Both the position numbers and the translations under genes were made by a program. Shown here in pieces: positions 9,311-38,443 of a stretch of DNA of 38,443 nucleotides. Position 1 is the stretch's first letter. Every line of letters begins with the position of its first letter. The stretch covers positions 1 to 38,443 of IMG/VR virus record IMGVR_UViG_3300047560_000826; one strand, given 5' to 3'. Source of the DNA: a virus. Below the pieces are notes generated by a model, which worked only from the letters and a program-made list of their open reading frames with translations, had not been told where the DNA came from and searched no databases.

Positions 9311-9697
9311 ATGAGCAAAGCGCCTTCAAAGAAAACTCCAAAAAACATCATTGATTACATCCGGAGTCCAGACGATTGGGATGCAAAAATCTTTGAGACA
9401 AAAATACGCAGCGAAATCGAGGCGTCAACCGGCGCTTTGACCGCCAGTGATGAAACCCTTTTGGGGATGCTTGTGATGACAATGGAAAGCCTGATTGCTT
9501 CTGAGCGAACAATCAAGGCGCAAGGCCATATCGAGCATTACAATTCCGGCCCTGCCACATCACCCTATTACAAGATAAGAGTTGAGTCTTTGGACAAAGC
9601 GATCAAGATCCTTGCGGAATTGGGCCTTGTTGCCCGTGGTCGCCCCAAGAAGACCAGCGTACCGTCAGCCGTAGATGAGTTATTCAACACTGCTTGA
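9311..9697 (+). CDS. Terminase small subunit
   Basis: A 128-residue protein. The C-terminal two thirds match P27-like small terminase subunits: SERTIKAQGHIEHYNSG, then ATSPYYKIRVESLDKAIKIL and a basic tail GRPKKTSV. It recognises packaging-site DNA and recruits the large subunit. ATG 9311 is preferred over a TTG 33 codons upstream because that extension is poor coding sequence. The gene overlaps the large subunit gene by 23 bases. Confidence 0.75.
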   Translation: MSKAPSKKTPKNIIDYIRSPDDWDAKIFETKIRSEIEASTGALTASDETLLGMLVMTMESLIASERTIKAQGHIEHYNSGPATSPYYKIRVESLDKAIKILAELGLVARGRPKKTSVPSAVDELFNTA

Positions 9698-11348
9698 GCC
9701 TGCGTTTAAATACGCCACTGCCGTAGTTCGCGGCGACCAACTTGCGTGTGAAGATGTCCGAATTGCGTGTCAGCGATTCTTGGACATGGTTGAGCGCAAA
9801 GATGCTCAATACGAGTTCGTCCCCGCAAAGGCTGAACATATCCTCAAATTCGCCAAATTCTGCCGCCATGTCAAAGGGCCAGATGCTGGCAAGTCAATTG
9901 AGCTTGAGGGGTTTCAGGTTCTTTTCCTTGCTGCCATTTATGGGTTCAGAAACAAGAAAGACCACGGCATCCGATGGGTGACTGACGTTATCTTGTTCGT
10001 TCCGCGAAAGTCCGGTAAGACCACATTGGCGTCGATCATTGCCTTGTATGAATTGCTGTTTGGCGAGGCTGGCCCAGAGGTGTTTACTCTGGCGACCAAC
10101 CGAGAGCAGGCATCCATTTGCTTTGATTCGTCCAAGGCCATCATGGAGAGCATGATCCCTGAGTTGCAGAGCCGATTCATTCCATTCCGAAGTGAACTGA
10201 AAAAGGCAGGCGACTCGACCTCTACCTACCGCGCCCTGTCCCGTGAAAACCGTAAGACTGGTGACGGTAAGAACCCATCATGTGCCATGATCGACGAGGC
10301 CGCGCAGATCACCGAGCGTGGCTCCATTGAGGTGTTGCACTCCGGTATGGCGGCGCGTAAGAACCCGCTTCGGATGTATCTGACGACCGCAAGTTTCACG
10401 AAAGAGACAAAGTTTTACGAGGACTTGAATCACTTTCGCGCGGTTCTGCGCGGCGCTGCGGAGGACACTTTCCGCTGGTTTGGATTGCTGTATTCCGTCG
10501 ATCCCGGTGATGAGTGGTCTGATCCGTCTGTATGGGGCAAGGCCAACCCGATGCTTGGCGTTTCTGTTACGACGGAGGCCATTCAGCACATGGCAGACGA
10601 GGCTAAGAGCAAACCTGCGTCCCTCAATGAATTTCTGTGTAAGCAGCTCAATATCTATGTGAGTTCAAATGCTGCTTGGGTTGATCGCCGGTATTGGGAT
10701 GAGTCCATTGCGCCAATGCCAACCGATAAGCCGGAGGCTACATTCATTGGATTTGACTTGGCTCATAGTCGAGATTTGAATGCCGTGGTAACGCTGCATC
10801 GCTATGGTGAGGAAGACCTTTACGCCAAGTTTAAATTCTTCTTGCCAGAGGAGTCGATTGATCTTGTGCCAAATCATTACAAGTCGATCTTTCAACAGGC
10901 CGTTGCCTCGGGTATCTTGCATCTCACACCCGGAAACGTGACTGATCTGAATGAGATCGAGTCGTACATTCGCCAAGAATCGGAGCTATATGAAGTCAAA
11001 GAAATTGGTTACGATCCTTATAACGCTGCTGCTTTGGTCGCCAATCTATTTTCCTACGGCCTTCCAGTCAAGAAGGTTGGACAAGGTATGGCAGTACTAT
11101 CCAACCCGTCGAAAACGGCAGAACAACTCATCCTCAAAAAAGCTATCAAGCACGATGGAAATCCGTTTGTTGGGTGGCAGCTCGGTAATTGCGAGGTCTA
11201 CACGGACGTAAACGGTAACGTAAAAGTGAGAAAAAATGAGGCTGATCCATCTGCTAAAGTGGACGGGATCATCGCAATGATTATGGCCTTGCACTGCCAT
11301 TTGGATAATGTTTTCGTGTCAGATTCTTATGGACTACGATTATTTTGA
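9675..11348 (+). CDS. Terminase large subunit
   Basis: A 557-residue packaging motor. The ATPase domain has a Walker A variant VPRKSGKTT (K115) and Walker B AMIDEAA (D207, E208), and the nuclease domain has FIGFDLAHSRD (D361) and VDGIIAM (D530). It pumps DNA into the prohead and cuts concatemers. The length and motif order are those of HK97/P27-type terminases. ATG 9675 lies inside the small subunit gene, typical of coupling. Confidence 0.95.
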   Translation: MSYSTLLEPAFKYATAVVRGDQLACEDVRIACQRFLDMVERKDAQYEFVPAKAEHILKFAKFCRHVKGPDAGKSIELEGFQVLFLAAIYGFRNKKDHGIRWVTDVILFVPRKSGKTTLASIIALYELLFGEAGPEVFTLATNREQASICFDSSKAIMESMIPELQSRFIPFRSELKKAGDSTSTYRALSRENRKTGDGKNPSCAMIDEAAQITERGSIEVLHSGMAARKNPLRMYLTTASFTKETKFYEDLNHFRAVLRGAAEDTFRWFGLLYSVDPGDEWSDPSVWGKANPMLGVSVTTEAIQHMADEAKSKPASLNEFLCKQLNIYVSSNAAWVDRRYWDESIAPMPTDKPEATFIGFDLAHSRDLNAVVTLHRYGEEDLYAKFKFFLPEESIDLVPNHYKSIFQQAVASGILHLTPGNVTDLNEIESYIRQESELYEVKEIGYDPYNAAALVANLFSYGLPVKKVGQGMAVLSNPSKTAEQLILKKAIKHDGNPFVGWQLGNCEVYTDVNGNVKVRKNEADPSAKVDGIIAMIMALHCHLDNVFVSDSYGLRLF

Positions 11349-11378
11349 GTGATAACATCACGAAAACTAGGAGCTGAC

Positions 11379-12776
11379 ATGGCTATTCTTGACATTTTCA
11401 AACGTAATTCCACCAAAGCCAACGAAAGCAATACGCTGTTCGGTCAGACGGCTCTAGGTAACAACGTCATCTATTCGGGCAGCAATACTCGCCCCACGGT
11501 CAATACACAAATCCTGTATGTGACCACTTCAAGCACCAATCAGGCGGGTCGTCCAATCGACATGAGCCTGTTGACGCGCAACAGTACGGTAATGGCTTGC
11601 GTTGGAGCGAAAGCTCGGGCATTAGCTCAGTTGCCAATCAAGATCATGGCAGAGCAAGAAGACGGATCGTATCTCGATGCTGTGAAAGACAAGTCCGTTG
11701 GTGTGCGTGACAAAAACAAGGCCAAGCAAGTCGCCAAACTCTTAAACAACCCCAACAATTTCCAGTCCAAATATGAGTTCTGGTATCAATGGCTCATGTG
11801 GTTGGAATTGTCTGGCGAAGCATTCACGCTATGGTGGCGCGAAGATCAAAAGAACCCAACACAGACCCCGATGGAAATGTATGTGTTGGATTCGACATTG
11901 ATTGCTGTGACGATCAACCCTGCGCGTTACCCTTCATATCGCCTGTCTACTCCGTCCTACGGTTTCAGTAAAGACGAGCCATTGGCTGCGCATCAAGTAA
12001 TGCACTGCAAAGAAGCCGCATGGCAAGGCTCGGCTGGTTTCAACAAGGGCATCTTGGCTGCTGAGTTGGTGACGTTGGATCAAGACATCGACGTTTATGC
12101 CAACTTCATCATGCTGAATGGCGCGAAACCAACTGGTATGTTCACCACTGAGCAAGTGATTCCCAATGGAAAGTACGAAGAAATTGCCGCGCGTCTGAAA
12201 GAGGCTTGGTCTTCTTTGGTTGGCAGTCAGAAAACCGACTTGTCGAAACCCGGTCAAGGTATGTTGCTTGACCAAGGCATGAAGTACACGCCTTTGGATA
12301 TTTTGACTTTGCAGGATACGCAGGCTGCTGAGTTGAAGATCCAAACCATGAAGCGCATCTGCGGTTTGTTTGGTGTGCCTCCTGCAATGATTGGTATTGC
12401 GGATCAGAAGTACAACAACACTCAAACAATGTTGGATGAGTTCTACAAGTCAACGATGTATCCCACGATCGTGAACGTGCAGGACAAATTGAAGCAACAG
12501 TTGTTCAATGGCTTCCCATCTTTGTCGGTTCAATTCGATACAGCAAACTTCTTGAAGGGCGCTCCGATTGACCAGATGAATTATGTGAAGGCTGGCGTTG
12601 AAGCTGGCATCTTGACTCCAAATGAGGCGCGTGAGTATTTGGGCAAAGCTCAAAAAGAAGGCGGCGATGAATTGAAGCAAGATACAAAGGCAACAGATCC
12701 GATTGCTGGATCAAGTCCTCAAGATACCGGCGGCGGCGGCGGAAATCAACGAAATAAAGCAAACATCGGCAAATAA
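11379..12776 (+). CDS. Portal protein
   Basis: A 465-residue HK97-type portal: N-terminal SLLTRNSTVMACVGAKARALAQLP-like start (in part), a central region with NNPNNFQSKYEFWYQWLMWL, and the conserved helix around RICGLFGVPPAMIG followed by YNNTQTMLDEFY. The dodecameric portal is the head vertex and the DNA channel. ATG 11379 is chosen because AGGAG stands five bases upstream; a GTG at 11349 is less likely. The Gly-rich C-terminus is disordered. Confidence 0.93.
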   Translation: MAILDIFKRNSTKANESNTLFGQTALGNNVIYSGSNTRPTVNTQILYVTTSSTNQAGRPIDMSLLTRNSTVMACVGAKARALAQLPIKIMAEQEDGSYLDAVKDKSVGVRDKNKAKQVAKLLNNPNNFQSKYEFWYQWLMWLELSGEAFTLWWREDQKNPTQTPMEMYVLDSTLIAVTINPARYPSYRLSTPSYGFSKDEPLAAHQVMHCKEAAWQGSAGFNKGILAAELVTLDQDIDVYANFIMLNGAKPTGMFTTEQVIPNGKYEEIAARLKEAWSSLVGSQKTDLSKPGQGMLLDQGMKYTPLDILTLQDTQAAELKIQTMKRICGLFGVPPAMIGIADQKYNNTQTMLDEFYKSTMYPTIVNVQDKLKQQLFNGFPSLSVQFDTANFLKGAPIDQMNYVKAGVEAGILTPNEAREYLGKAQKEGGDELKQDTKATDPIAGSSPQDTGGGGGNQRNKANIGK

Positions 12777-12989
12777 ATGTCGTTGATTTTTAAGATTATG
12801 GTAGCATCGTTGGTAGCTAATAGACCAACTGTGCCGCCTCCACCTCGTCGTGGTAGGCCGCCAAAAATAATACATGACATTGACCAAACTAAAGTCGATG
12901 AGGTAATCCATGACGCAAAAAAACTTGATGATGTTGTGCGAGGCCAAACTGGTTCTCGAAAAGGCAGGCGGCGCAGAGCCAACGGGTAA
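12777..12989 (+). CDS. Small basic protein with AT-hook-like motif
   Basis: A 70-residue protein with PPPPRRGRPPKI near the middle; RGRPP flanked by basic residues is the core of an AT-hook, which binds the minor groove of AT-rich DNA. It fills the gap between portal and protease and overlaps the protease start by 80 bases. A start at ATG 12798 is also possible. Role unknown; it may be a head-associated or shadow-free connector gene. Confidence 0.45.
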   Translation: MSLIFKIMVASLVANRPTVPPPPRRGRPPKIIHDIDQTKVDEVIHDAKKLDDVVRGQTGSRKGRRRRANG

Positions 12990-13713
12990 CATTGAGGCGG
13001 TTGTTACGACTTGGGGGCCGCGCGAAGGCGCAGACGGTCGCAAGTTCAATTACCAGCCAGAGGCGTTTATGCAGTGGGCCGAAGATTTCGGCAAAACTGG
13101 TCGTCCTCTCCCAATGTTTGTTAACCACGAAGCCGATGCAATTCCTGTTGGCGAATGGACATCATTTGAGTTTGACGATACCGGCATGAAAGCCTCGGGT
13201 CGCCTCTACATCAATACAACTCAAGGCTCTGATCTGTATCAAGTGATGAGCGAATCTCCAAATATGTTCGGTGGTGTTTCTGTTGGCGCATACGCCGAAG
13301 AATATCAATGGACAAAAGAAGACGGCACTGTTTTCCCCGCTGGTTCTGGCGACTATTGGGATGATGGTTACTTCCAAATCACCAAGGGTGGTTTGCGTGA
13401 AGTGTCAGTCGTGATGTACCCAAACAACCCTATGGCAGAAGTTCAGAAGTTGGAGTATTTCCGCGCTGACGGCTCTGCCGATTTAAAAGTTTTGGAGCAA
13501 GCCCTGCGTGATGTCGGTCTTTCCAAGAAAGATGCGGTCGCTGCCGCATCTACATTCAAGAAAGTGATTGAGCAGCGTGATGCCACTCAAGAGCAGATTG
13601 AAATTGCGCCTCAACAGAGTGAGTCTGATGTGGAAGCGACCGAAGCTGAAATTCTCGCTGCTCTTGAGCAACGTGAACTTCTTAAACTCCTCGACAAACG
13701 CCTGAAAGGTTAA
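12910..13713 (+). CDS. Prohead maturation protease (HK97 S78 family)
   Basis: A 267-residue serine protease: catalytic H73 in FVNHEADAIPVGEW and S124 in MFGGVSVGAYAEE, followed by GGLREVSVVMYPNNP, the usual strand with the third site residue. It cleaves the delta domain from capsid protein during maturation and then digests itself. The C-terminal 80 residues are acidic and helical, as in protease-scaffold versions. GAGGT precedes the ATG. Confidence 0.9.
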   Translation: MTQKNLMMLCEAKLVLEKAGGAEPTGNIEAVVTTWGPREGADGRKFNYQPEAFMQWAEDFGKTGRPLPMFVNHEADAIPVGEWTSFEFDDTGMKASGRLYINTTQGSDLYQVMSESPNMFGGVSVGAYAEEYQWTKEDGTVFPAGSGDYWDDGYFQITKGGLREVSVVMYPNNPMAEVQKLEYFRADGSADLKVLEQALRDVGLSKKDAVAAASTFKKVIEQRDATQEQIEIAPQQSESDVEATEAEILAALEQRELLKLLDKRLKG

Positions 13714-13715
13714 TC

Positions 13716-15062
13716 ATGTCAAAAGAAATCATCGAAAAGCTGGACGCTATTGAAGTCAAGCAAGTCGAAGCAATCCAAGCTGTTGAAGCAAAAATCCCTG
13801 CTGCCATTGATGCTGTTAAAGCAGAAATGTCGGAAATGGTTGCTGCTTTGGAAGCTAAAGTTGCCGCTATCCCTGCTCCATCCATCATCAAGCCTGTCGC
13901 TAAGACTGTTCGCCAAGATGTTAACCGTAGCGTTCGTGAGCAATTGTCTGCCTTCTACAAAGGTGGCCGCAATGTCGAAAAAGAATTGCAAGTGTTTGCT
14001 GATGAATCACAACACGCTGCATACTTGGCCGAGGCCTCTGCCTTGACTGGCGGCGGTGATGGCAAAGGTGGTCGTACTGCGTATGACCCTGTGTTCGTCG
14101 CTCTGCGTTTGAACAACCCATTGCGCGGCATCACTCGCACTGTGGCTACTGATGGCTCTAGCTATCAATTCCGCGTGAAGACCGGCAACGCTGGTGCTGC
14201 ATGGGGCTACGGCATCCAGAACAACGGTTCGGCAACAACTGAAAACACTTCAATCTGGCAACTCGTTTTGCAAGATTTGAACGTGCAGTTCCCAATCCGT
14301 ACTGCTGCTTTGGACGACATCGACGGCTTGGAAGCCAACGTGGTTGACGATATGTTGGCTGAATTCGCTCAAGCCGAAGCTCTGTCAATGATCCAAAACA
14401 ACGACCAAGGTTTGACCAGCTTGCCTTATGGCGGCTCTAACGGTCTGCGCGGCTTGAACCAGTACGCTGGCTCTAACGCAACCTACACTGGCGGTCAAAC
14501 AACTACTGCGGCCTTCGGTTCTAGCGGTACTGGCTCTACCAGCGGTTTGCACAGCTTGGCTACTTACGACCAGTTGACTTCAAACACCAACAGCGTGACA
14601 ACCAACAGCGTGACTTACAAAGACGTTATCAACTTCTTGTATGCTTTGCCACAACAATACTGGACACCAGAAGCAAAGATCATGGTGAACCCATTTATGT
14701 TGGCCGCAATCCGTGGTTTGACAGACAGCAACGGCACTCCTGTGTTCGAGCGTATGTCTCCATTGGAAGCAACTCCCGGTATCGTGGGTCGCTTGGCTGG
14801 TTTCGATGTGGTGGTCAACAAGTACCTCGACACTCCAAACCAAACCACAACCGGCTCTGCTGGCACAACTAACCTGTTCCCAATGTACTTTGCGGACTGG
14901 TCACGTTTCCACACTACCGTTGATCGCTTGAACATGGTGATGCGTCGTTACGACCAAACATTGCCCGGTTACATCACGTTCTTCGGTGAAAAGCGTCTGG
15001 CTACATCGGTTCGCGACCCCTTCGCTGGCGTCCGTTACCGTTCAACCGGCACTGCAACCTGA
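13716..15062 (+). CDS. Major capsid protein 1 (HK97 fold, with delta domain)
   Basis: A 448-residue HK97-fold capsid protein. Residues 1-104 form a charged coiled-coil delta domain (repeating Val/Ala/Glu/Lys heptads), which serves as internal scaffold and is removed by the protease. The mature part starts near EASALTG (106-112) and includes WQLVLQDLNVQFPIR, the long spine helix region DDMLAEFAQAEAL and the C-terminal VRDPFAGVRY. AAGG precedes the ATG. A strong terminator follows directly, then a paralogue without a delta domain. Confidence 0.93.
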   Translation: MSKEIIEKLDAIEVKQVEAIQAVEAKIPAAIDAVKAEMSEMVAALEAKVAAIPAPSIIKPVAKTVRQDVNRSVREQLSAFYKGGRNVEKELQVFADESQHAAYLAEASALTGGGDGKGGRTAYDPVFVALRLNNPLRGITRTVATDGSSYQFRVKTGNAGAAWGYGIQNNGSATTENTSIWQLVLQDLNVQFPIRTAALDDIDGLEANVVDDMLAEFAQAEALSMIQNNDQGLTSLPYGGSNGLRGLNQYAGSNATYTGGQTTTAAFGSSGTGSTSGLHSLATYDQLTSNTNSVTTNSVTYKDVINFLYALPQQYWTPEAKIMVNPFMLAAIRGLTDSNGTPVFERMSPLEATPGIVGRLAGFDVVVNKYLDTPNQTTTGSAGTTNLFPMYFADWSRFHTTVDRLNMVMRRYDQTLPGYITFFGEKRLATSVRDPFAGVRYRSTGTAT

Positions 15063-15073
15063 TAGTTGCCTTG

Positions 15074-15100
15074 GATGGGGAGTTCGCTCCCCATCTTTTT
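15074..15100 (+). terminator. Intrinsic terminator with UUCG loop between the two capsid genes
   Basis: A perfect 9-bp stem (GATGGGGAG 15074-15082 with CTCCCCATC 15087-15095), a TTCG tetraloop, then TTTTT (15096-15100). It lies between capsid gene 1 (stop 15062) and capsid gene 2 (start 15120), and all further head and tail genes lie downstream. It would lower downstream expression relative to capsid protein 1, as partial terminators after major capsid genes do in other phages. Confidence 0.9.
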
Positions 15101-15119
15101 AACTCTCATTGGAATAAAC

Positions 15120-16142
15120 ATGACCATTACCGAAAAAATCCTGAACGGCATTAAGCAAGCGATTACCGAAGGTGGCTCCGTCACCATTGACCTGAAAGAA
15201 GCCTCGGCATTGACTGGCTCTGGTTCGGGTGTTGGTGGTAATGTTGTCTTTGATGATGCTTTTGCCGCCTTGCGTCAAGCAAACCCTTTGCGTCAAGGTT
15301 CTCGTCAAGTGCCTGTAATCGGCTCTGATTTCCAGCTCGTTGCCAAGACTGGTAATGCTGCTGATGCAACAAACCCTTGGGGTTACGAATTTACTCCCAA
15401 CTCAGGCTCTCCTGACGTTGATACAACGATTTGGCAATTGCCAGTTCGTGTGCTGGTTGCACAACTTCCAGTTCGCTCTGCTGTTCTTTCTGACGTAAAC
15501 GCTTTGGATTCCGCAATCGTGGAAGACTTGGCCTTGGAATTCGCTCAGTTGGAAGGTCAATCTATGGTCATTAACAATGACCAGTCTGGCACAACAACCA
15601 CTTCCACAGGTGGCGAATTGGGTCTGCGCGGTTTGGATAGCTATCCATCTGGTTCTGTCAGCTCATACGGCACAAGCGGCACTGCGATGACTGATGGTTT
15701 GCATGAAATTGCAACAGTTCCTTTGAATGGTAGTCCCGTCACTTATGACAGCATTGCTACTATGGCACAAACATTACCAGCTCAATACTGGTCTTTGCCA
15801 TCAACTGCTTGGCACATGACTCCTGCAATGATTGCAACTTTGCGTCAATTGAAAGATGACCAAGGCTTGCCTTTATTCTTGGAAATTGGCGATGCTGATG
15901 GCGCTGCTGTTGGTCGCGTTTTTGGCTTCCCTGTCATTCCAAACCCATATTTGTCTGGTGATTTCCCCATCTACTTGGCAAACTGGAATCGCTTTTTGAC
16001 AATCGGTGATACTGAGCAAATGAATGTTCAAATGTACGAGCAAACACAGCCCGGCTTCATCACCCTGTACGCTGAAAAACGTATGGTATCGTCAGTGCGT
16101 GACCCGTTCGCTGGTGTTCGCATGACAATTGATGGTCTGTAA
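15120..16142 (+). CDS. Second capsid protein (HK97 fold, no delta domain)
   Basis: A 340-residue paralogue of capsid protein 1. From EASALTG (27-33) the two align end to end: ANPLRQ / NNPLRG, VKTGNAG / AKTGNAA, WQLPVRVLVAQLPVR / WQLVLQDLNVQFPIR, EFAQ, GLRGL, ALPQQYW / TLPAQYW, and VRDPFAGVR near both C-termini. It lacks the 105-residue scaffold domain. It could be a minor capsid or vertex protein, or a spare recent duplicate; assembly would need the scaffold of protein 1. ATG 15120 is chosen because upstream codons form the terminator hairpin. Confidence 0.9.
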   Translation: MTITEKILNGIKQAITEGGSVTIDLKEASALTGSGSGVGGNVVFDDAFAALRQANPLRQGSRQVPVIGSDFQLVAKTGNAADATNPWGYEFTPNSGSPDVDTTIWQLPVRVLVAQLPVRSAVLSDVNALDSAIVEDLALEFAQLEGQSMVINNDQSGTTTTSTGGELGLRGLDSYPSGSVSSYGTSGTAMTDGLHEIATVPLNGSPVTYDSIATMAQTLPAQYWSLPSTAWHMTPAMIATLRQLKDDQGLPLFLEIGDADGAAVGRVFGFPVIPNPYLSGDFPIYLANWNRFLTIGDTEQMNVQMYEQTQPGFITLYAEKRMVSSVRDPFAGVRMTIDGL

Positions 16143-16155
16143 GTAAGGATAAAAA

Positions 16156-16827
16156 ATGTCCGTTGATTCTCAACTCGGTTATTTGAATTACGGTGCGCCC
16201 ACGCGCAATCCGTTCAACTACGCAAAGACGGAGCAAATCAATCGTGACATTGCGACCGCTTGGTTGACTCTGGATGAAATCACCAATCAATTGAACTTGT
16301 TTGGTGATGAAAGTCAGGATGTGTATTTGTCAAGCCTTGAGCTGGCTGTGCGCATGGCTATCGAGGATTTCCTTGGTATGTCCATCTTCCCAACGTCATA
16401 TCGCGTCTGGTACAACGCATCCAGTCTGTACGGTACGCCTTTGACATTGGATCTGCCTGCGGTGAGCCAGAACTTCAATCCAGCATTGCCCGGCGTGTCG
16501 GTTAATGCTGTGAAGTATTGGAATGACAACAACCCTCCAGAGCTGATTACAGTTTCTCCAACAGAGTATTACTACGATCCATCTGGCAACAAAATCGTTA
16601 TTGCAAATTTGCCGACGAATTTGAATAGCTCGATGACTTCGCCTGTGTATTGCGAGTACACAACAGCAGCAAACCCCTTGGCGGCATATCCCGTAATTAA
16701 GCAGGCTGGTTTGCTGTTGTTGACTCACCTCTACAACAACCGTAGTGATACCTCTGGCCCAATCCAGCACAACATCCCTTGGGGTGTTCAAGTGCTTCTG
16801 CGTCAATACAAACCTTTGGTGATGTAA
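16156..16827 (+). CDS. Head-tail connector (gp6-like adaptor)
   Basis: A 223-residue protein: residues 38-75 (TLDEITNQLNLF, then SLELAVRMAIEDFLGM) match the helical connector pattern of HK97 gp6/phiE125 gp8 type adaptors, followed by a beta domain with YYYDPSGNKIVIANLP and a final helix VIKQAGLLLLTHLYNNR. It forms the ring below the portal. AAGGA precedes the ATG. Confidence 0.8.
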   Translation: MSVDSQLGYLNYGAPTRNPFNYAKTEQINRDIATAWLTLDEITNQLNLFGDESQDVYLSSLELAVRMAIEDFLGMSIFPTSYRVWYNASSLYGTPLTLDLPAVSQNFNPALPGVSVNAVKYWNDNNPPELITVSPTEYYYDPSGNKIVIANLPTNLNSSMTSPVYCEYTTAANPLAAYPVIKQAGLLLLTHLYNNRSDTSGPIQHNIPWGVQVLLRQYKPLVM

Positions 16828-17171
16828 TGGCAATTGCACGTTTTGAGAACATTGCAATCAATAATCTCACTTTTTCTGAGAGTGATTTTGGTGAAGGCGC
16901 GACCATTCAGACCAAATGGTTTGATACCCGCGCCCGTGTATCTGACGTTGCCAACAGCCTAAAGATTGCTGACAAATATCGCCTGTACCAAGAGTTGACC
17001 CAATTCACTCTGAATTACACGCCAAATATCAAGCAGATTGTGGATGGGCAGGATAACTATTCGATCACTTGGCGTGGTCAAGATTGGCGTATCACAGATG
17101 TGCGTGAAGCAAATGACCGCATGACTGTGCTGCTGTTGTGCTACCGTAACGATCCATCGACCGCAGTATGA
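16827..17171 (+). CDS. Head closure / head-tail joining protein
   Basis: A 114-residue protein directly after the connector gene (TAATG overlap). Beta-rich with YSITWRGQDWRITDVREAND, the pattern of SPP1 gp16-like head closure (stopper) proteins. It seals the DNA-filled head and makes the platform for the tail. Confidence 0.7.
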   Translation: MAIARFENIAINNLTFSESDFGEGATIQTKWFDTRARVSDVANSLKIADKYRLYQELTQFTLNYTPNIKQIVDGQDNYSITWRGQDWRITDVREANDRMTVLLLCYRNDPSTAV

Positions 17172-17621: not shown

Positions 17622-18146
17622 ATGGCTCTTATCAATAAGGTCTTACCCGGTTACGTTGCAACCCTCTGGTGTCAAGAAGGCGATACGCCAACTCCCTTGA
17701 CTGATGCTCAATTGGCTACTTGGACTGGTCAAATCGAAGACATCATCGGTACAGCCGCAGGCGGTACTGGTACAGGCGGCATCCAAGTTCCAGTGGAAGC
17801 TGTGCCTGCATTCGGTGCTGATGACGCTGTGGCCGCTTACTCTGTGGCTGGTGCGCGTACCGGTGCAAAGATCACTACTCAAAACCAAGTGACATCTTTG
17901 GCTGTGACTGCTGCATGGAACCCTGCTGATCCAGCTCAGTTGTTGATCCGCAATGACGGTTACAACGGCACAATCGTGCGCACTTACGTTGTGGCTGTGT
18001 ATGACGGCACTGACACTGTTGCCTACGCTTTTAACGGTATGGTTGGCGGTATGTCTTGGGATATGTCTCCATCTGCCGAAGGCAAGTTCAACTTCACAAT
18101 CCACCCTGTCGGTGGCAACAGCTACGGCTGGTCAAACAACACCTAA
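17622..18146 (+). CDS. Major tail tube protein
   Basis: A 174-residue protein beginning MALINKVLPGYVATLWCQ, beta-rich with a Gly/Thr loop (AAGGTGTGG) and C-terminal GMSWDMSPSAEGKFNFTI. Position after the tail terminator and before the chaperone genes, and its size, fit the tube subunit that stacks in hexamers. AAAGGAAAAATC precedes the ATG; it has its own clear ribosome binding site as expected for a highly made protein. Confidence 0.75.
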   Translation: MALINKVLPGYVATLWCQEGDTPTPLTDAQLATWTGQIEDIIGTAAGGTGTGGIQVPVEAVPAFGADDAVAAYSVAGARTGAKITTQNQVTSLAVTAAWNPADPAQLLIRNDGYNGTIVRTYVVAVYDGTDTVAYAFNGMVGGMSWDMSPSAEGKFNFTIHPVGGNSYGWSNNT

Positions 18147-38259: not shown

Positions 38260-38439
38260 ATGAAAAAACAAGACGCAATCAAACTGGCTGGCAGTGCCAT
38301 AAAACTAGCCAAGATTCTCGGCATCACGAAAGGCGCTGTTTCCCATTGGGGAGAAGACATCCCGCGCGGTCGTGAATACGAGTTACGATACCTAAAGCCC
38401 GAATGGTTCGCGGTTGAAAAACAAAAGGAAGCAGCATGA
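38260..38439 (+). CDS. Cro-like transcription regulator
   Basis: A 59-residue protein of the P22-Cro type: MKKQDAIKLAGSAIKLAKIL, then GITKGAVSHWGEDIP as the recognition helix-turn-helix and a C-terminal tail REYELRYLKPEWFAVE. P22 Cro has the same length and the same A-V-S-x-W core. It turns down early promoters in temperate phages. No ribosome binding site is visible before ATG 38260 and the promoter -10 is very close, suggesting leaderless translation. A TTG at 38215 would extend it through the promoter and is unlikely. The 3' end is repeated at 1-123. Confidence 0.85.
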   Translation: MKKQDAIKLAGSAIKLAKILGITKGAVSHWGEDIPRGREYELRYLKPEWFAVEKQKEAA

Positions 38440-38443
38440 GTTA
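38317..38443. repeat. Terminal direct repeat, right copy
   Basis: Exact copy of 1-127; see there. It holds the 3' part of the Cro-like gene and the first codons of the MazG-like gene. Confidence 0.95.

Follow-up and report, generated by a model that had tools for sequence, protein, structure and literature searches.

Two adjacent genes in the head operon of a small virus genome encode paralogous capsid proteins of the HK97 fold, here called P1 and P2, which have been kept side by side throughout the related phages sampled. The best reading of P2 is as a lesser subunit of the shell that P1 forms in bulk, and we lean towards the pentameric vertices as its most likely place. Below we set out the evidence on fold, descent, gene expression and domain architecture that bears on this proposal, together with the alternatives.

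The virus record analysed, referred to in full as the window, comprises 38,443 bases. Its first 127 nt (1-127) recur as its last (38317-38443), which indicates a contig that is circular as assembled and is probably the whole genome, about 38.3 kb long. The head genes are ordered terminase (9675-11348), portal (11349-12776), S78 prohead protease (12910-13713), P1 (13716-15062), a hairpin (15074-15100), P2 (15120-16142) and head-tail adaptor (16156-16827), with all features from the protease to the adaptor on the + strand. The protease, directly 5′ of P1, was identified as Peptidase_S78 type (Pfam PF04586, E = 2.6e-9; phrog head maturation protease, E = 9e-13), and P1 starts 3 nt after its gene. 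P1 is closed by tandem stop codons, TGA TAG (15060-15065), and P2 opens with ATG. The adaptor, the first gene 3′ of P2, matches phrog_40, head-tail adaptor Ad1 (E = 2.4e-9), and a putative major tail protein lies at 17622-18146 (phrog_158, E = 0.0045; P19250A orthologue position, E = 4e-5). Genome matches for host or prophage context were confined to four MAG contigs of mixed taxa, and no host is inferred from them.

The coordinates of the two genes agree with those given in an earlier sequence-only reading, which had taken both products for HK97-fold capsid proteins. Both match Pfam Phage_capsid (PF05065; cut-off, 24.2 bits), P1 with 87.7 bits (E = 1.2e-24) and P2 with 81.1 bits (E = 1.2e-22), and both match phrog_10, ‘major head protein’. 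They align to each other with 40% identity over 347 columns (BLASTP, E = 8e-72), and VRDPFAGVR stands at the end of each, as had been noticed. Single-chain models were predicted with middling confidence (pLDDT 62 for P1; pLDDT 73 and pTM 0.73 for P2), which makes them good for the fold and not for interfaces, such that they cannot separate a pentamer from a hexamer. Compared with solved capsids, their best structural match is the RcGTA capsid (VIA Z of 20.9 for P2 and 19.7 for P1), with many HK97 entries at Z 14-16; profile searches also place RcGTA and HK97-type capsids as the closest solved structures. The assignment of a common fold is thus borne out by Pfam, phrog_10 and structural comparison. 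A hint as to capsomer type from the chains matched (6tb9_A5 and 9gyi_A for P2; B chains for P1) was dropped, the models being too weak to carry it.

P1 (448 aa) has the make-up of an HK97-type capsid protein with a delta domain: an N-terminal helical scaffold some 100 residues long, with an S78 protease upstream and no scaffold gene besides. Its delta domain spans residues 1-106 (13716-14033), predicted as a long coiled helix and modelled with helices at 3-50 and 65-83 ahead of the shell fold, and its mature shell domain spans residues 107-448. P2 (340 aa, shell domain 28-340) has 26 residues only ahead of the junction common to both proteins, and 78 delta-domain columns of P1 have no counterpart in it. 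The claim that P2 has no delta domain therefore stands in so far as the long scaffold is confined to P1, but P2 keeps a 26-residue stub before the EAS motif, with a predicted helix at 3-17, that aligns to the end of the delta domain in prohead I of HK97 and D3, a stretch that is ordered there. The junction itself reads EASALTG in both proteins, at residues 106-112 of P1 (E106; 14031-14051) and 27-33 of P2 (E27; 15198-15218), where the sequence-only reading had placed it. Its glutamate is invariant in a 35-row alignment and in the P2 alignment, and the residue at -2 is constrained, with [LMI]-x-E-A-S in nearly all of 121 P1 sequences and L or V at -2 in nearly all P2 sequences. From this conservation, the EAS junction looks like a maturation cleavage site common to P1 and P2, at which we infer cutting to occur.

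P1-P2 loci were sampled by scans of viral contigs, which supplied nearly all of the 332 loci, overlapping contig copies included. A search of related phages for the same pair, suggested by the sequence-only reading, found P1 followed by P2 in constant order in 314 loci (overlapping copies counted), which contain 157 distinct spacers. Single genes occur in 17 loci, all at contig ends; wherever a related locus has space for the two genes, they lie next to each other. A frameshift interrupts P2 in a single contig (L156, 5889-6865), either an assembly error or a real break. The cultured Methylophilaceae phage P19250A also has the pair, its P2 orthologue (P19250A_0006) being annotated as a ‘hypothetical protein’. 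Cleavage after the junction glutamates of this phage, Glu106 in P1 and Glu34 in P2, would yield mature proteins of about 38.4 and 33.6 kDa, respectively. Among 99 non-redundant pairs, identity is at least 57% between P1 sequences and at least 54% between P2 sequences, and at most 47% between P1 and P2; P1-P2 identity is no higher within one genome than across genomes, and these pairs show no sign of gene conversion between the two genes. A tree of 56 proteins separates P1 and P2 into two clades (support 100/100) with a long branch between them, and median dN/dS over 639 pairs is 0.124 for P1 and 0.130 for P2, denoting equal purifying selection.

By these measures, the duplication predates the sampled family. 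The sequence-only reading had offered a recent duplication with loss of the scaffold as an alternative, which is refuted by the two fully supported clades, the universal intact pair, the identity ranges and the dN/dS values; nor is the second gene random or broken in related phages, being intact and universal in the group. It is likewise well supported, on comparative grounds, that P2 is under full constraint and has a function. That P2 is a functionless recent duplicate on its way to loss, for which the similarity of P1 and P2 is the one thing that speaks, is highly improbable given the age of the two clades, the adjacency in every locus with room and a dN/dS of 0.13.

Between the two genes lies the hairpin described in the earlier reading, with the stem GATGGGGAG-TTCG-CTCCCCATC at 15074-15095 (9 bp, UUCG loop) and T5 at 15096-15100. 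The region folds at -23 kcal/mol (z = -4.1), a value reached by none of 200 shuffles, and this is the sole hairpin on the + strand of the window to pass a strict terminator test. Applied to relatives, the same test finds a spacer terminator in 110 of 121 pairs, compared with 11 at all other places on the strand across 1.2 Mb of loci. A softer test finds a terminator-like hairpin in 156 of 157 distinct spacers, in the form of 102 different stems, with at least five kinds of base pair at each of nine inner stem positions (compensating changes). Perfect stems of at least 8 bp occur in 130 of the 157 real spacers compared with 351 of 3,140 shuffled ones; in P19250A the spacer stem is shorter and bulged. 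By this pattern of substitution, the hairpin is conserved as a structure, and its G+C-rich stem, T run and compensating changes qualify it as a predicted intrinsic (rho-independent) terminator.

The idea that the hairpin is peculiar to the P1-P2 pair was rejected. In four ordinary single-capsid phages (ST64B, YeP1, Pmp8 and RHph_X2_25), a hairpin also lies directly after the capsid gene, although two of these fold no better than z = -1.8. Farther downstream, a second strict terminator was seen near the predicted major tail gene in several relatives, about 3.06-3.09 kb after the P1 stop in L174, L182, L183 and L190 and 3.6 kb after it in L179 and L185. Hairpins of this kind seem to follow genes for bulk virion proteins, and P2 simply sits with the neck genes on the low-expression side of one. 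The stem ends about 25 nt from the P2 start (median across relatives), long enough for a ribosome site but too short for a promoter, and a promoter scan gave no match; transcription of P2 and all genes downstream would thus come from read-through, provided that P1 itself contains no promoter.

In one relative the P1-P2 spacer measures 574 nt and contains, after the terminator, an extra 180-aa ORF (L131, 5704-6246), the start of which (FYTYIHF..GIPFYVGKGKGRRH) resembles a GIY-YIG homing endonuclease by eye; a Pfam search of it gave no match. In Rhizobium phage RHph_X2_25 (L333, 1992-2840), the annotation likewise has a putative homing endonuclease next to the capsid gene, on its 3′ side, and such elements may tend to insert where that gene ends.

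Codon usage was examined as a second guide to expression. A preference for C-ending codons in two-fold pyrimidine families is a usual mark of high expression. P1, with a C-ending share of 0.80, stands above all other window genes examined; the putative major tail protein follows at 0.72, and P2, at 0.51, resembles the portal and adaptor. The value for the gene at 16844, read in a wrong frame, was left out of account. Ranked among nine head-tail genes in 130 related loci, P1 comes first in 89, the tail protein in 21 and P2 in 1. Codon bias, an indirect measure, agrees with the hairpin in placing P1 on the bulk side and P2 on the low side, and the two proteins are very probably made in unequal amounts, with P1 the more abundant. 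This part of the earlier prediction is upheld, but its casting of the terminator as a device that sets the P1:P2 ratio was overstated.

P2 has a codon bias at portal level, precedes the adaptor gene and would be read on one transcript with the neck genes, and these features would suit a protein at the portal vertex or neck, present in a few tens of copies as a capsomer ring around the portal or as a starter of assembly. P2 distances nevertheless track those of the adaptor less closely (matrix correlation 0.55) than those of the protease (0.71) or P1 (0.62), with the portal at 0.60, although adjacency of the genes confounds all of these values, and we know of no precedent for an HK97 paralogue forming a portal ring. 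We regard such a location as quite improbable. A choice of partner for P2 from the same correlations was abandoned, neighbouring genes being confounded. What the comparison does indicate is exchange: P2 identity drops to 61% among loci in which P1 is more than 85% identical, a pattern that we take to mean that P2 variants have been exchanged between lineages.

We propose instead that one head shell is built from two HK97-fold proteins, P1 and P2. P1, made in bulk, would form the hexamers, with its 106-residue delta domain acting as scaffold, and P2 would be a paralogue retained for one minor role of its own in the shell, most likely at the 11 vertices, as pentamers. A triangulation number of T=7 is typical for a genome of 38 kb and, if it applies, about 55 copies of P2 would accompany about 360 of P1. 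With its short pre-region, P2 would probably be unable to scaffold alone and would be recruited by P1; the S78 protease would then trim both proteins between Glu and Ala of their common hydrophobic-x-Glu-Ala-Ser junction. The terminator after P1 would mean that P2, together with the neck and tail genes, is transcribed by read-through and at a lower level. In this scheme the presence of P2 in the shell, its vertex position, its cleavage and its copy number are all what we infer from the features described above.

The preference for vertices comes from the shell domain and from precedent. Beyond the delta domain, 73 columns are fixed and identical between P1 and P2 and the shell cores align nearly without gaps, with nearly all differences in length falling in the A domain, in which loops of 9, 8 and 13 residues in P1 are absent from P2; the domain limits used here are approximate, being drawn from predicted secondary structure. 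The A domain surrounds the capsomer axis in HK97-fold shells. Since A domains meet at that axis, subunits of five-fold and six-fold capsomers would be expected to differ there, and it is these loop differences, together with the pentamer role of T4 gp24 and SaPIbov5 Ccm, that lead us to favour the vertex position. Other considerations weigh against it. Most phages of this size build pentamers and hexamers from one protein, as do the closest solved relatives, RcGTA and HK97, which need no P2, and the fall of P2 identity to 61% alongside closely similar P1 sequences gives no suggestion of a tightly co-adapted interface.

The main rival to the vertex position, on our assessment, is an encapsulin-like mixed shell, in which P2 would be a minor subunit tied to no one site, mixed variably into hexamers and pentamers or tuning the size or stability of the head. 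Family 2B encapsulins co-assemble two HK97-fold paralogues with irregular tiling (PMC12407261), and chains of two-component encapsulins are among the structural matches of P1 and P2; the large share of shell-core residues common to the two proteins and the swapping of P2 variants between lineages would also fit. Both phage-type precedents, however, are defined pentamers, and the systematic absence of three A-domain loops from P2 suggests a defined site, such that we hold this arrangement to be unlikely, if the most serious of the alternatives. A role outside the virion is less likely again: as an assembly regulator, a decoy capsid (directed, for instance, at islands that hijack capsids) or the subunit of a separate shell, P2 would have a parallel in SaPIbov5, in which a capsid homologue redirects assembly (PMC8569155), and it has no scaffold of its own. 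Its full mature shell domain, conserved core and junction, and selection as strong as that on P1 are better suited to a structural part.

A bolder reading of the pair can be stated, in which the shell, throughout a widespread family of small siphophages, is an obligate two-protein assembly with the scaffold in P1 only and P2 recruited in trans, P2 either having come to form vertices independently of T4 or entering mixed capsomers of a kind new to tailed phages, and P2 being a swappable module. We put this forward tentatively, as a possibility that we would not expect to hold in full.

The HK97 fold is known, as is a second capsid paralogue as a kind of protein, from T4 and SaPIbov5; of the pair described here we found no description in the open-access literature. 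According to reviews, possession of a dedicated vertex capsid protein sets T4 apart from the other well-studied phages (PMC9958956, PMC3185693). The two-capsid arrangement described here, apparently of independent origin, is a constant feature of a large environmental family of phages that has a genome of 38 kb and includes an isolate, P19250A. The survey suggests that small freshwater tailed phages of this group always carry the pair and have heads with a dedicated second subunit. They offer a small, testable system for asking for what reason and under what conditions a phage divides its shell between paralogues, whether a scaffold-bearing subunit can recruit a scaffold-less one and what sets the P1:P2 ratio, and a conserved ‘hypothetical protein’ gains a name.

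Among known systems, T4 likewise encodes a pair of HK97-fold paralogues, the second of which has a much shorter N-terminal pre-region and, in P2 as in gp24, is probably the lesser in amount. The T4 propeptides measure 10 residues in gp24, which forms the pentameric vertices, and 65 in gp23 (PMC9958956); the corresponding lengths to the conserved glutamate, at the predicted cleavage site, are 27 in P2 and 106 in P1. T4 differs in its separate scaffold, genome of about 170 kb, prolate head and gp23-gp24 identity of only about 20%, compared with a 38 kb genome, a scaffold inside P1 and 40% identity here, and the vertex position is demonstrated for gp24 (PMC9958956) and proposed for P2. No other known relative of P2 comes near to P1 in similarity, which may point to an origin of P2 independent of gp24; gp24 is absent among the structural matches listed. 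In SaPIbov5, Ccm is likewise a shorter-delta homologue (87 compared with 128 residues) of a delta-domain HK97-type capsid protein, forming the pentamers where the phi12 protein forms the hexamers (PMC8569155), and both proteins are cleaved. Ccm is the product of a parasitic island and redirects the head size of its helper (PMC8569155), whereas P2 lies in the phage’s own head operon, between the capsid and adaptor genes. Family 2B encapsulins share with the pair the co-assembly of two HK97-fold shell proteins, but they are bacterial compartments with irregular tiling and without a portal, protease or delta domain (PMC12407261), unlike P1 and P2, which are flanked by terminase, portal, protease and tail genes. 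RcGTA and HK97-type phages have the same portal-protease-capsid gene order, but form hexamers and pentamers from one capsid protein and have no P2. The phiCbK-like siphophage CcrColossus has a second paralogue of its major capsid gene, although in a giant genome, as a diverged copy about 21 kb away and in one phage only (PMC3556154). For the marine P19250A relative Venkman, a single capsid protein is mentioned (PMC8163748). P19250A itself is a cultured counterpart of the virus described here, with the same pair in the same order, a hairpin between the two genes and a P2 orthologue that is 54% identical.
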